Shown: positions 49,251-55,437 of the stretch, piece after piece
How the letters are laid out: each line of letters opens with the position of its first letter
Position numbering within the stretch: the first letter of the stretch is position 1
Assembly (NCBI RefSeq): GCF_029338395.1
Contig: NZ_CP119809.1
Coordinates: 2,294,001 to 2,358,000, forward strand
DNA length: 64,000 nt
Reading direction: 5' to 3'
Source of the DNA: Halorussus caseinilyticus
GTDB lineage: Archaea > Halobacteriota > Halobacteria > Halobacteriales > Haladaptataceae
Program-made: the position numbers and the translations under genes
Notes under the pieces: generated by a model
What the model was told of the DNA's origin: nothing
Databases searched by the model: none
Seen by the model: only the letters and a program-made list of their open reading frames with translations

Positions 49251-51062
49251 ATGAGACGAACGAAAAAGGACGAACCTGCAGACTCGGAGAAGGACGACGA
49301 CCACCTGTCGATGGGCCGACGCCGACTGTTGCAGGCGGCGGGCGTCGGAGTCGGCGGTCTCTCGCTCGCGGGGTTCGGCGGCGAAGTCGCCACTGCCCAG
49401 ACCGACTGCGCGGACGGCCCGTTCAAGCGGACCTACGACGGCGCGACCATCAACTTCGGTCAGATTCGGGCCGAGCAAGCGCGCGGCGAGGCACCCGACT
49501 CGGTGGGCGCGTCGAGTCCGGGCGGTGGCGGGACCGCCGCGGACCTGCGCCGGACCGCGAGCGAGGCGGGCGGACGACAACCGCCGCGACAGGCCGCCCA
49601 AGAGTCGAACGCCGACGACCCCGGCCCGCTGACCGCCAGAACCGAGTACGACGGCGTGAACGCCGAACAGACCCGCGGCGGCGTCCCCTCCGACTCGCAG
49701 GTCGCGGCGGGCAACGGCAAAGTCGTCCACGCGCTCAACCGACAGGTCGCCATCTTCAACGAGCAGGCGGGGCGGCGACAACAGCAGGTACGCCTCGAAC
49801 GACTCTGGGAACCGGTCATCCCCGAACCCGAAGGCGGGTTCGTCTACGGCGAACCGTTCGTGTTCGACCCGCGGGCGCGCTACGACAGAGAGGCCGACCG
49901 GTTCGTGGTGTGTGCGACCCAGTACGAACCCGGCCTGACGACCGACGGCGAAATCATCGACCGTGAGACCCTCGAAGAGGGCGAGCTGGAGGACGAACAG
50001 GTCAGTCGCCCGCCCCGAGGATGGTGGGTCGTCGCGGTGTCGGCGACCAGCAACCCGAACGGGGAGTGGCACGTCTACCGGGTCCCGCCGCTGAACAACG
50101 AGGGTCTGGTGGACTACCCGACGCTCGGACTCGACAGCGACGCCATCTACCTCACGCAGAACTTCTTCGGCGAGGTGTTCGAGGTGACGATGATTACCCT
50201 CGACAAGGCCGAGATGTACGCGGGCGAACCGGTGACGACCCACCACTTCACCGGGATGAGCGACCCGGACGCGGACGGTCTGACGTTCACGGTCCAACCG
50301 GCGCTTCAGCCGTTCTCGGGCGGGAGTTCGGGGACGTACTATCTGGTGAACTCCGACTTCCCCACGCCGAGTTCGGGGACGCTCACGCTCTGGGAGTTGA
50401 CCGACCCGACGGGCGACCCGACGCTGGAGTGTTACACGCTCGACGTTGACCCCTACAGCTATCCGCCGCCAGCGCGACAGAAGGGCGGCGACGAGACCGA
50501 CTACGTGGACACCCTCGGCACGCGCCTGATGAACGCCGACGTGGACGGCGGGTCGCTGTGGACCGCCCACACCATCCAGTACGACTGGGACGGCGACGGG
50601 CGCGCGGTCGCGGCCATCCGGTGGTACGAAATCGACGTGGCCTCGCGGTCGGTCGTCCAGAGCGGCGTCTACGGCGAACCCGGCACCTCCTACTACATCC
50701 CGACGGTCGGGGCCGACGACGGCACGGCGGTCATCGCCCACAACCGGAGCGGACCCGACACCTACATCCAGTCGCTGGTCTCGGGCCGGACCAGCGATTA
50801 CGCGCAGGGCCGACTCGAAGACTCGCTGGTCGTCCAAGACGGCGAGTCGAACTACGACTTCGGCGAGGGCTTCGGGACGCTGGCCAACCCCCTGCGCTGG
50901 GGCGACTACAACGGCGTGTCGGTAGACCCCTCCTCGGGCCGGTTCTGGACGGTGAGCCAGTACTCGCCCGACGTGGAGGTTCCGCCGGAGGCCGAGGAGC
51001 GCGACCCCTACCACACCCGCATCGCCGAGGTGTACTTCGACGAGGACGGCACGAGTAACTGA
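49251..51062 (+). CDS. Tat-exported large secreted protein of unknown function
   Basis: This 603-residue protein has a Tat signal (GRRRLLQAAGVGVGGLSLAG, residues 23-42) ending ATA. A variable Gly/Ala/Gln-rich stretch follows (about 75-125). The large body shows repeated beta-strand blocks such as VVHALNRQVAIFNEQ, RYDREADRFVVCATQY, VDYPTLGLDSDAIYLTQNFF and WTAHTIQYDWDGDG. This resembles secreted beta-propeller-like proteins found in bacteria. No catalytic motif is evident. It is probably extracellular. A possible promoter lies in the AT-rich patch 49200-49235. Confidence 0.8.
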   Translation: MRRTKKDEPADSEKDDDHLSMGRRRLLQAAGVGVGGLSLAGFGGEVATAQTDCADGPFKRTYDGATINFGQIRAEQARGEAPDSVGASSPGGGGTAADLRRTASEAGGRQPPRQAAQESNADDPGPLTARTEYDGVNAEQTRGGVPSDSQVAAGNGKVVHALNRQVAIFNEQAGRRQQQVRLERLWEPVIPEPEGGFVYGEPFVFDPRARYDREADRFVVCATQYEPGLTTDGEIIDRETLEEGELEDEQVSRPPRGWWVVAVSATSNPNGEWHVYRVPPLNNEGLVDYPTLGLDSDAIYLTQNFFGEVFEVTMITLDKAEMYAGEPVTTHHFTGMSDPDADGLTFTVQPALQPFSGGSSGTYYLVNSDFPTPSSGTLTLWELTDPTGDPTLECYTLDVDPYSYPPPARQKGGDETDYVDTLGTRLMNADVDGGSLWTAHTIQYDWDGDGRAVAAIRWYEIDVASRSVVQSGVYGEPGTSYYIPTVGADDGTAVIAHNRSGPDTYIQSLVSGRTSDYAQGRLEDSLVVQDGESNYDFGEGFGTLANPLRWGDYNGVSVDPSSGRFWTVSQYSPDVEVPPEAEERDPYHTRIAEVYFDEDGTSN

Positions 51063-52041: not shown

Positions 52042-52090
52042 TCGCTACGAAAGCAAGGTTTATGACCCGTCGTTTCGTATGAATCTCGTA

Positions 52091-53158
52091 ATGTCGGCCG
52101 CATACGTCGCACTGGAGGGGGGCAGCGTCGTGGAGGCTCGCTGTCGCGCTCCGGGCACGTCCCACGGGGAACTGGTATTCACTACTGCGTACACGGGCTA
52201 CGAAGAGAGCCTGACGGACCCGTCCTACGAGGAACAGGTCCTGACGTTCTCGTACCCGCTCATCGGTAACTACGGAGTCCGGCGCGAGCGATTCGAGGAC
52301 GACCGCGTTCACCCGCGCGCGGTCGTCGCGCGGGAACTCACCGACGACGTGGCCGAATGGCTCGAATCCGAGGACGTTCCCGCGGTGGACCGCCTCGACA
52401 CCCGCGACCTCGTGGGCCAGATTCGAGAGGGCGGCGCGATGAAGTGCGGCATCTCGGCCGGTCCCGACGCCTCGCCCGAGAAGGCCAAGGACGCGCTGGC
52501 GGACTGTCCGGGCATGAGCGACCACACGGACATCGGCGCGCAGGTCAGCGTCTCCCGGCGCAAGACCTACGAGGGCGGCGACGGACCCGACGTTGCGCTC
52601 GTGGACTGCGGCGCGAAGGGGAGCATCACCGAGTCACTGCTCGAACGCGACGCGACGGTCCACGTCCTGCCCTACGACGTGACGCCCGAGGAAGTCGCCG
52701 ACTTGGACCCCGACGTACTCTTCCTCTCGAACGGTCCCGGCGACCCTGCGAACTTCGAAGCCGCCCAGTCGCTCGTCGAGGAGTTCGTCGGGGAAGTCCC
52801 CTTGGCGGGCATCTGCCTCGGCCAGCAAATCGTCGCGCGTGCGCTCGGGGGCACGACCGAGAAGATGGACTTCGGCCACCGCGGGGTCAACCAACCGGTT
52901 CGGGACCTCCGGACCGACAAGGTGGTCATGACCACCCAGAACCACGGCTACACGGTCGCCGACCCCGGAGACCTCGAAGTCACGCAGGTCAACGTCAACG
53001 ACGACACGCCCGAAGGACTGGAGAGCGACGACCTGCGAGTCCTGACTCGCCAGTACCACCCCGAGGCGAACCCCGGCCCGCACGACACGCTCGGATTCTT
53101 CGACGATGTGGTGGAGATGGCGGGAAACGAGTGTCGAACGCCCGTCGCCGCTGACTGA
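52091..53158 (+). CDS. carA: Carbamoyl-phosphate synthase small subunit (glutamine amidotransferase)
   Basis: This 355-residue protein has the CarA N-terminal domain (SAAYVALEGGSVVEARCRAPG, TGYEESLTDPSYEEQ). The class I amidotransferase domain has nucleophile Cys in PLAGICLGQQIVARA and His/Glu in RQYHPEANPGPHD. It supplies ammonia from glutamine for carbamoyl phosphate in arginine and pyrimidine synthesis. carB is not next to it. ATG 52091 is preferred to 52079 because the conserved sequence starts there and a TATA box lies about 30 bases upstream. Confidence 0.95.
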   Translation: MSAAYVALEGGSVVEARCRAPGTSHGELVFTTAYTGYEESLTDPSYEEQVLTFSYPLIGNYGVRRERFEDDRVHPRAVVARELTDDVAEWLESEDVPAVDRLDTRDLVGQIREGGAMKCGISAGPDASPEKAKDALADCPGMSDHTDIGAQVSVSRRKTYEGGDGPDVALVDCGAKGSITESLLERDATVHVLPYDVTPEEVADLDPDVLFLSNGPGDPANFEAAQSLVEEFVGEVPLAGICLGQQIVARALGGTTEKMDFGHRGVNQPVRDLRTDKVVMTTQNHGYTVADPGDLEVTQVNVNDDTPEGLESDDLRVLTRQYHPEANPGPHDTLGFFDDVVEMAGNECRTPVAAD

Positions 53159-53247
53159 CGGGCGGAGAGTTCTCCCCTCGATTTTTCGGTTCTGTGGTCC
53201 CCTCGCGTAGACGTTTCCCTTCCGTTCTCGGGCCGTCTTCACTCCTC

Positions 53248-53276
53248 GCGCAGTCGCTACCGCGTAGCGACTGCGC
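53248..53276. terminator. Hairpin after carA
   Basis: Perfect 12-bp arms (GCGCAGTCGCTA and its complement) with a 5-base loop lie 90 bases after the carA stop. It is probably a 3'-end structure; there is no T-run directly after it. Confidence 0.5.
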
Positions 53277-53365
53277 CACTCGGCGTCTGTCGGACCGGGT
53301 GAGAACGTGTGTATAAGTATTCCTTCAAAAATTATTTTAATTTAGAGTTAATTCTAGAGCGTGCA

Positions 53366-54229
53366 ATGGTTCAGTCACGACGACGGTTCCTGAAGCTCGC
53401 CGGTTCGACGGCGGCGACGGGTGCCCTGATTGGCGCATCGAACTCCGCGAGCGCGTACTCGTCCCAGCCGAACATGCGCTGGGAACCCGCGGACCCGAGC
53501 AACTACACCGAGGCGAGTCGGAGCCCTTCCGAGATGCGGTGGATTATCATCCACGTCACGGAGGGCAGTTACGAGGGGACGATTAGCTGGTTCAAGGACC
53601 CCGACGCGAACGTCAGCACACACTACGTCATCGAGAACGACAGCAACGCCGAAATCACGAAGATGCTCAACCGCGGCGACATCGGGTGGCACGCGGGCAA
53701 CGGCGGCTACAACGACACGTCGCTGGGCTTCGAACACGAGGGGTACACCGACCAGACCACCTTCACCGACGCGCTCTACCGCTCGTCGGCGAAAGTCGTC
53801 CGGTACCTCGCCGACAAGTGCAACATCCCGCTGACCCGACCGTCGGGCGTCGCGCCGTGTAACCCCTACGACGGCATCGGCGGCATCATCGGCCACCATC
53901 AGGTTCCCGACCCCAACGACTGCGGCTACAACAGCCACACCGACCCCGGTTCGACGTGGGACTGGGGCACCTACATGAACTACGTGCAGGGCACGACGCT
54001 CGGCGCGCGGTTCAGTATCGGCGAGGGCGTCGTCACCACCGCGAGCGTCAACGTCCGGAGCGAACCCGCAATCGGCGACAACGTCGTCCACACCAATCCG
54101 GTCGGCGAAGTCGGCTACGTGCAGGACGGCTACGTCACCGAAGACGGCTACACGTGGTGGAAGATAGAGTACAACAACGGCGTCACCGGGTGGTCGGTGG
54201 ACCGCTTCCACGCCTCGGACGCCATCTGA
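53366..54229 (+). CDS. Tat-exported peptidoglycan amidase (N-acetylmuramoyl-L-alanine amidase, family 2) with SH3 domain
   Basis: The 287-residue protein starting at 53366 has a Tat signal (QSRRRFLKLAGSTAATG). An amidase-2/PGRP domain follows, with zinc-ligand candidates His63 (IIIHVTEGS), His177/178 (GHHQVPD) and Asp193 (HTDPGSTWDW). A C-terminal bacterial SH3 domain comes last (ASVNVRSEPAIGDN to GVTGWSVDRF). AmpD has Lys two residues before that Asp; here it is His191, a form I also associate with actinobacterial secreted amidases. Haloarchaea lack murein, so the substrate is probably bacterial cell wall. AT-rich promoter DNA precedes the start. Confidence 0.9.
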   Translation: MVQSRRRFLKLAGSTAATGALIGASNSASAYSSQPNMRWEPADPSNYTEASRSPSEMRWIIIHVTEGSYEGTISWFKDPDANVSTHYVIENDSNAEITKMLNRGDIGWHAGNGGYNDTSLGFEHEGYTDQTTFTDALYRSSAKVVRYLADKCNIPLTRPSGVAPCNPYDGIGGIIGHHQVPDPNDCGYNSHTDPGSTWDWGTYMNYVQGTTLGARFSIGEGVVTTASVNVRSEPAIGDNVVHTNPVGEVGYVQDGYVTEDGYTWWKIEYNNGVTGWSVDRFHASDAI

Positions 54230-54385
54230 GCGGGCGAATCGCCGACCACGATGTCCGCCGACTCTTTTATCGTCCGGCTACCGACAGTCGAGTCAGACTA
54301 GACCGCGGACCGTCGCGCGCAGGCCCGCCTGCGCATCGCTCGTGCGCGCCCGTTCGACCGCTCGTGCCCCCAACCGCGTGCGCGT

Positions 54386-54407
54386 CCGCGGCGCGCTCGC
54401 GCCGCGG
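54386..54407. repeat. Short GC-rich hairpin
   Basis: Perfect 10-bp arms (CCGCGGCGCG and its complement) with a 2-base loop lie between the convergent amidase and metallophosphoesterase genes. It probably separates the two transcripts. Confidence 0.45.
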
Positions 54408-54438
54408 GCGCGCCGACTCATACGCACGCACCACTGGC

Positions 54439-55437
54439 TCATCGCTCGTCCACCAGCGGCAGGTCCGAAAGCTGGTCTTCGACCATCGCGGCGATGTCCC
54501 CGCTCCGGTCGGAGTGGGTCCGGGCGAGGTGGTGGGCCTCCTCGACGCCCTCGGTGTCGGCCACGGGCACCATCCGGAGGGTAGTCCCCTCGGGACCGAC
54601 CTCCGCGAGGGTGTAGGCCTGCGGGAACGACGAGAGCGCGGGGCAGACGAGTCCCCGAACGTCGCCGGTGATTGCGGCGGGCAGGTGAACGTGACCCGAG
54701 AGGTGGAGGGCGTCGTGGCCCGCTAGCGCGTCCACGAACGCGGGCGCGTCCCCGACCGGCGGGTGGGGCGCGTAGCCGTCCGCGCCGACGGCGGCGTCGA
54801 GACCCGGCAGGTTGTGGTGGCTCACGACCAGCGCGGCGTCGGTCTCGGGCAGGGTGGATTCGAGCCACGAGAGTTGGTCGTCGGAAATCGCGCCGTCGTG
54901 GGTGGCGTCGAGTTCGCCGCCGGGCGCGGACGCGGAGTTCAGTCCCAACACGTCCACGCCGCCGAACTGCGTCCGGAAGGGGAACTCGCCGGGCGCGAAG
55001 CGGTCGGCGAACTCGGCGACGGGCGGGGTGTCGTGGTCGTCGAACGCCTTGGGCACGTCGTGGTTGCCCGGCACCGCGACGAACGGCGCGTCCAAGTCCG
55101 CCAGCACGTCGGCCGCGCCGTCGAAGTCCTCGGGTCTGCCGTCCTCGGTCAAGTCGCCAGCGAACACCACGCCGTCCACGCCGCGGTCGTTGGCGTCGGC
55201 GATGGCGGCCCGAAGTCGGTCCTCGGTCCGGTGAAAGACCTTCCACGTTCCCTCCTTGTCGGTCGAAAGGTGCGGGTCGGAGACGACGGCGAGCGTCGTC
55301 CGAGTGTCGGCCCGCGGACGCGCGAACCGGGCCAGCGTAGCGGGTCCTCTGCGGGCGCGAATTTCGGGTGTTTCGGCGTCGTCTGCCGTCGTCGTGGCGT
55401 CTCGCCGCCGGTAGACTGCGCTTCCCTCGGTAGTCAT
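54439..55437 (-). CDS. Calcineurin-like metallophosphoesterase
   Basis: This 332-residue protein has the full motif series VVSDPHLS, VFAGDLTEDG, VPGNHDVPK, VVSHHNLPG and LHLSGHVHLPA, which binds two metal ions. Substrates in this superfamily are varied (cyclic nucleotides, phospholipids, phosphoproteins), and no clue is given here. It is convergent with the amidase gene. No signal peptide is present, so it is cytoplasmic. Confidence 0.9.
   Translation of the reverse strand: MTTEGSAVYRRRDATTTADDAETPEIRARRGPATLARFARPRADTRTTLAVVSDPHLSTDKEGTWKVFHRTEDRLRAAIADANDRGVDGVVFAGDLTEDGRPEDFDGAADVLADLDAPFVAVPGNHDVPKAFDDHDTPPVAEFADRFAPGEFPFRTQFGGVDVLGLNSASAPGGELDATHDGAISDDQLSWLESTLPETDAALVVSHHNLPGLDAAVGADGYAPHPPVGDAPAFVDALAGHDALHLSGHVHLPAAITGDVRGLVCPALSSFPQAYTLAEVGPEGTTLRMVPVADTEGVEEAHHLARTHSDRSGDIAAMVEDQLSDLPLVDER

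Follow-up and report, generated by a model that had tools for sequence, protein, structure and literature searches.

A candidate exported peptidoglycan amidase in a haloarchaeon, and a probable peptidoglycan-utilisation locus in its relatives

Introduction

Haloarchaea contain no murein. Why should one of them carry a gene that reads as that of an exported enzyme for cutting the walls of bacteria? The question is raised by Halorussus caseinilyticus, in a stretch of 64,000 nucleotides (positions 2,294,001 to 2,358,000 of contig NZ_CP119809.1) that we call the window. A first-pass annotation had seen at 53366-54229 an exported peptidoglycan amidase of bacterial type, with competing bacteria as its likely target. 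Sequence and fold bear out the first of these statements, and the predicted active site is complete; we hold it very probable that the gene specifies a zinc amidase that is exported and acts on bacterial peptidoglycan. That the same enzyme would also serve in digestion, which makes up the full account developed here, appears likely.

The gene and its product

The open reading frame is intact and codes for 287 amino acids, from an ATG at 53366 to a stop codon at 54227-54229. Its features, in window coordinates, are the following.

53308..53365, forward strand: AT-rich stretch upstream of the gene (26% GC), likely promoter, judged from composition
53366..54229, forward strand: complete gene of an exported Amidase_2-SH3 protein (open reading frame and translation, PF01510 match, homologue in genome G024)
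53366..53455, forward strand: Tat signal peptide, residues 1-30 (SRRRFLK ... ASA), recognised by TIGR01409, its exact cleavage point inferred
53531..53950, forward strand: Amidase_2 catalytic domain, residues 56-195 (PF01510, E 4.7e-26), with an AmpD-like fold
53552..53554, forward strand: H63, predicted zinc ligand 1, conserved in 63/63 haloarchaeal and 82/83 bacterial relatives
53732..53734, forward strand: E123, predicted catalytic base at the position of AmpD E116 by alignment, conserved in 63/63 haloarchaeal and 83/83 bacterial relatives
53894..53896, forward strand: H177, predicted zinc ligand 2, conserved in 63/63 haloarchaeal and 82/83 bacterial relatives
53936..53944, forward strand: H191-T192-D193, with H191 at the position of AmpD K162 and D193 as predicted zinc ligand 3, from conservation and alignment
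54002..54229, forward strand: C-terminal module resembling bacterial SH3 domains, residues 213-287, likely wall-binding (SH3_3, E 0.013; relatives; model)

The AT-rich stretch is likely to be the promoter of the gene; the sole match of a promoter scan was of bacterial type and on the opposite strand, which is irrelevant for an archaeon. A homologue that is 89% identical exists in a second Halorussus genome (G024). As first noted, base composition resembles that of the neighbours, with GC3 at 0.89 against 0.86-0.88 in the adjoining genes. With a pI of about 4.6 the mature protein is acidic, as expected of proteins operating at high salt.

The Tat signal holds: TIGR01409 scores 20.0 bits over residues 4-30, around the motif SRRRFLK, for a cut-off of 16.7. 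So does the amidase-2/PGRP domain, with 92.1 bits for PF01510 against a curated cut-off of 26 and a predicted fold like that of AmpD. In the AlphaFold2 model pLDDT exceeds 90 across most of the domain, and its best match among solved structures is AmpD (E 1.1e-8, Z 18.8, rmsd 2.1 over 152 residues), followed by XlyA, PlyL, AmpDh2, AmiD, AmiA, LytA and the animal PGRPs. With the AmpD equivalog model NF008758, which stands for anhydromuramoyl amidases, the protein scores 36.1 bits, below the cut-off of 143.

Conservation was counted over 63 haloarchaeal, 83 bacterial and 21 viral relatives, and H63, H177 and E123 are nearly invariant across them all. A profile alignment places H177 and D193 at zinc positions of AmpD, E123 at that of its base and H191 at that of Lys162. 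The zinc ligands first proposed, H63, H177 and D193, are thus upheld by conservation and by alignment with AmpD, while the alternative H178 is to be dropped: it is variable, kept in 14 of the 63 haloarchaeal sequences, which leaves H177 as the second ligand. At the third ligand, these sequences have Asp in 51 cases and Cys in 12, and Cys is also a known zinc ligand in the AmpD/PGRP fold. The motif HTDPG, with His where AmpD has Lys, had seemed worthy of note. This residue is His in 44 of 63 haloarchaeal and 82 of 83 bacterial relatives; it is the normal state of this branch of amidases and therefore no mark of novelty.

AmpD, AmiD and AmpDh2 (PF01510) have in common with the window amidase its fold (Z 16.8-18.8), its zinc ligands and its catalytic Glu; it differs from them by Tat export, the SH3 module and the His just discussed, at about 21-26% identity. 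The amidases of the staphylococcal autolysins AmiA and AmiE (4KNK, 3LAT) share the fold at Z 16 with only 14-15% identity, and they too have His at the AmpD Lys position. Unlike the window amidase, they act on the wall of their producer. Catalytic domain, complete predicted active site, Tat signal and conservation throughout the family thus make a well supported set of predictions. Beyond it we infer activity on murein, actual secretion, and a benefit as food, alone or together with the removal of competitors.

The SH3 module

The bacterial SH3 domain of the first-pass annotation is a more delicate matter. In the window amidase itself it is weak, at 16.1 bits under a Pfam cut-off of 27 for SH3_3, and the region modelled alone is all-beta with low confidence (pLDDT 66), its fold matches being weak as well (Z 6.5 for an autolysin repeat, Z 6.0 for an endolysin SH3b). 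In relatives the homologous module passes the Pfam cut-off and occurs as a repeated unit. Elsewhere in the window genome it is found on three M23 peptidases, a SleB-like protein and an S15 peptidase, and in a relative on a glucosaminidase.

Between one and four copies accompany the amidase domain in 36 of the 63 haloarchaeal proteins and none in the 83 bacterial relatives, so that its joining to the amidase probably took place within haloarchaea. A Tat-like motif precedes the amidase domain in 58 of the 63. The union of Tat export, Amidase_2 and SH3 is thus nothing special to this gene and is common in its haloarchaeal family.

The window amidase is not alone in its genome, which also encodes a second amidase, three M23 peptidases and a SleB-like protein, most of them with the same SH3 module; all three M23 proteins combine it with a Tat-like motif. 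These three Tat-SH3-M23 proteins and the SleB-like protein, which has two SH3 modules, lie outside the window (L055 2230-2973 and 3035-3808, L058 2241-3014, L057 2154-3254) and are candidate exported wall hydrolases.

A haloarchaeal family

Homologues are present in 49 of 391 Halobacteria genomes (E 1e-15). Within its own family 23 of 28 genomes have relatives, some of the listed matches being to the SH3 module alone; over a phylum-wide sample of 295 genomes, all matches again fell within Halobacteria. Scans with the single protein of viral and genome contigs gave nothing, and it was a query built from an alignment that recovered relatives.

The closest bacterial relatives are proteins of Actinomycetota (Nonomuraea, Streptomyces) named N-acetylmuramoyl-L-alanine amidase, up to about 50% identical and sharing HTDPG. 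They differ in lacking the SH3 module and in forming a separate branch of the tree. The comparison with bacterial relatives that had been suggested at the outset was made in an unrooted tree of 55 representatives. There a branch with support 100/97 separates the 35 haloarchaeal sequences, without exception, from bacteria rich in Actinomycetota. This fits a single old gain from bacteria and later diversification among haloarchaea, as far as a tree that is unrooted can suggest it.

Might the gene instead be a stray lysis gene, the endolysin of some phage or virus left in the chromosome? The best named PHROGs are indeed lysis families, and distant relatives are encoded on viral contigs. However, a single phage record matched, at 25% identity; a scan of viral contigs for the pattern of close relatives found none, and the viral relatives that the alignment recovered do not exceed 39% identity. 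The Tat signal, the two housekeeping-type genes on either side and membership of a large cellular haloarchaeal group also argue against a viral gene, which we regard as very improbable. As to the viral proteins, eighteen of the contigs L205-L224 carry an amidase group with long branches and Cys as third zinc ligand; in a quick tree it falls near some haloarchaeal sequences, probably through long-branch attraction.

The domains found with the amidase in other haloarchaea bear on its substrate. Some relatives combine amidase, SH3 and glucosaminidase, or amidase and PG_binding_1, in one polypeptide: fusion to Glucosaminidase is seen in L034 and L051, to two PG_binding_1 domains in L013. With such partners peptidoglycan is the substrate that makes most sense, and we see in these fusions the best sequence evidence for it. 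An 863-aa haloarchaeal protein (L039 949-3537) is built otherwise, with an alpha/beta hydrolase (DUF900-like), four SH3 modules and an amidase domain.

A rival account would have the substrate changed or the activity lost, the protein acting on something else, such as a glycoprotein or an archaeal wall polymer, or serving as a sensor in the manner of non-catalytic PGRPs. It draws on the lack of murein in haloarchaea, on the fact that fold alone cannot reveal a substrate, and on the existence of PGRPs that bind peptidoglycan without cutting it. All zinc ligands and the base are kept here, unlike in the non-catalytic PGRPs; besides the fusions, paralogues of the amidase adjoin AnmK and NamZ, which are specific for MurNAc. 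We find such a change of function very unlikely, and prefer an active peptidoglycan amidase.

The chromosomal site

In Halorussus the gene occupies a variable site, window positions 53159-54438, between two conserved borders.

52079..53158, forward strand: presumably carA (carbamoyl-phosphate synthase small subunit), a name given from sequence and general knowledge; left border, conserved by synteny in Halorussus
54439..55437, reverse strand: calcineurin-like metallophosphoesterase (PF00149, 51.2 bits), right border, conserved by synteny

Six Halorussus genomes have no amidase here, their two border genes being neighbours separated by 34-393 bases. The amidase directly follows carA in two genomes, that of the window and G024. 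Two others (G011, G022) have at the same place a different amidase, 46% identical, which belongs to another clade and is endowed with PG_binding_1 domains, and the remaining genomes have unrelated genes there. The first-pass annotation had taken the similar base composition as a sign of long residence. The family is old in haloarchaea, to judge from the tree, but presence at this particular site is patchy, and since the gene is missing there in several close relatives, composition is no proof that it has long resided at the site. Farther upstream of the stretch formed by an Lrp/AsnC gene, carA and the amidase gene, the window encodes at 49251-51062 (forward strand) a 603-aa protein with a Tat signal and no Pfam match.

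A probable utilisation locus in relatives

Short paralogues of the amidase, of the Tat type, are found in quite different company. In Halorussus limi, H. vallis and H. aquaticus, plasmids carry a 25-kb locus in which such a paralogue accompanies AnmK, NagZ, NamZ (DUF1343), two GH18 enzymes and a complete ABC transporter of the Opp type, together with a serine hydrolase, a HAD hydrolase, a GNAT, an SDR, a mandelate-racemase-type enzyme, a PIG-L deacetylase and an IclR regulator. AnmK and NagZ score above their NCBIfam equivalog cut-offs, and NamZ has both its Pfam domains (N and C). Instances were collected from Halorussus limi (L085 2813-28006, at about 10.8-36 kb of NZ_CP096661.1) and elsewhere (L087, L088, L229-L244). 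Contamination was considered as their source and discarded: the locus sits on plasmids of complete Halorussus genomes, beside haloarchaeal genes.

Gene content is conserved over several families, and in a genome of a different family (G099) the amidase lies inside the locus too. AnmK is present in 15 of the 391 Halobacteria genomes and NamZ in 16, among them all 15 with AnmK; the AnmK-NamZ-NagZ locus thus occurs in about 4% of haloarchaeal genomes. An Amidase_2 protein is often found near it, or elsewhere in the same genome. The amidase family is present in 10 of 15 genomes with AnmK and in 39 of 376 without it (odds ratio 17, p 7e-7); by genus the association has p 0.001, ancestry being treated only by counting genera. 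Most genomes with the amidase do without the AnmK/NamZ locus.

Tat-like motifs mark the amidase, both GH18 enzymes and the binding protein of the transporter, while NagZ, NamZ and AnmK have none. Together with the gene content, this pattern has the layout of a feeding pathway, with cutting outside, import, and breakdown inside, and we consider the ensemble a probable peptidoglycan-utilisation locus. It recalls the cassette for MurNAc catabolism of bacteria, made of AmiE-NagZ-NamZ and AnmK: in the haloarchaeal relatives NamZ, NagZ, AnmK and a Tat-type amidase are likewise gathered in one locus. The difference lies in MurQ, the usual etherase for MurNAc 6-phosphate. None was found above cut-off in 17 genomes, which gave only partial matches of SIS domains, under cut-off and in frames of the size of GlmS. 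The GNAT, SDR and HAD genes of the locus were weighed as substitutes, and nothing pointed to any of them.

The mandelate-racemase-type gene falls far under the cut-off for L-Ala-D/L-Glu epimerases. S66 LD-carboxypeptidase, tried as an indicator that muropeptides are used, is uninformative, being present in 14 of 14 genomes tested and in Haloferax volcanii. A literature search found no paper on the AnmK/NamZ locus, on peptidoglycan recycling or on MurNAc use in haloarchaea; most subscription journals lay outside it, which makes it weak evidence of novelty.

How does the window amidase relate to this locus? It lies outside it, at the carA site, and its clade, with amidase and SH3, differs from that found inside the locus. 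Its genome has neither AnmK nor NamZ; the second amidase there is 69% identical to one of the short paralogues. The organism would therefore not use MurNAc by that route, and its food would be peptides and cell contents.

Weapon or digestive enzyme?

Haloarchaeal proteins that act on bacteria are already known. Woldo and Danwoldo of Halogranum salarium are wall hydrolases exported by Tat, and they kill a halophilic bacterium, Halalkalibacterium halodurans (PMC12352652). The window amidase resembles them as a Tat-exported haloarchaeal wall hydrolase, and the same idea of an action on bacteria applies; it differs in that their catalytic domains are M23 and glucosaminidase with PG_binding_1, and in that killing was shown for them, while it is known from its sequence. 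Scavenging was not excluded by the authors of that work, who left open whether archaeal wall hydrolases kill rivals or eat walls (PMC12352652). Of the features on which their survey relied, the amidase has the catalytic Pfam domain (PF01510) and the Tat signal peptide, and lacks a wall-binding Pfam domain above cut-off (PMC12352652). For the latter reason the survey probably did not include it.

The same enzyme might accordingly be conceived as a dedicated weapon, secreted to kill competing bacteria, with food as an incidental gain. Besides the precedent of Woldo and Danwoldo, the absence of AnmK and NamZ from its own genome speaks for this, as does the patchy site between carA and the phosphoesterase (six times empty, twice with this amidase, twice with the other), reminiscent of turnover in an arms race. 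Yet patchiness is usual for catabolic genes too, and the paralogues are part of a locus of nutrient type, with a transporter and catabolic genes. A target among competing bacteria, as first proposed, is thus plausible and has its haloarchaeal precedent, but the case for scavenging that relatives make, through their MurNAc/peptidoglycan locus, is no weaker. A weapon first and foremost seems to us rather unlikely.

The digestive account that we prefer would run as follows. A zinc-dependent N-acetylmuramoyl-L-alanine amidase would leave the cell folded, through the Tat pathway, and outside it would sever stem peptides from the MurNAc of bacterial peptidoglycan, the SH3-like module keeping it on the bacterial wall. 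Along with the other exported hydrolases of the genome, it would open and digest bacterial walls, the peptides and cell contents released being usable as food. The producer, having no peptidoglycan, would need no immunity gene.

A broader proposal can be made, to which we give somewhat less than even chances: several haloarchaeal families would feed on bacterial peptidoglycan, with Tat-exported amidases and GH18 enzymes outside, uptake of the Opp type, and NamZ, NagZ and AnmK inside, an as yet unknown enzyme replacing MurQ. The window amidase would be an outside component of such a system in an organism that uses peptides only.

Significance

Peptidoglycan hydrolases that archaea secrete and that kill bacteria were already published in 2025, and the window amidase is another such candidate. 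The new element is not this single gene; it is the probable peptidoglycan-utilisation locus of its relatives. The amidase family is widespread in haloarchaea, members like this one probably escape the domain filter of the published survey, and its linkage to MurNAc genes in relatives offers a direct case for eating that can be put to the test. Should the pathway be real, archaea would join in the turnover of peptidoglycan in salt lakes, and would use muramic acid without the usual etherase.
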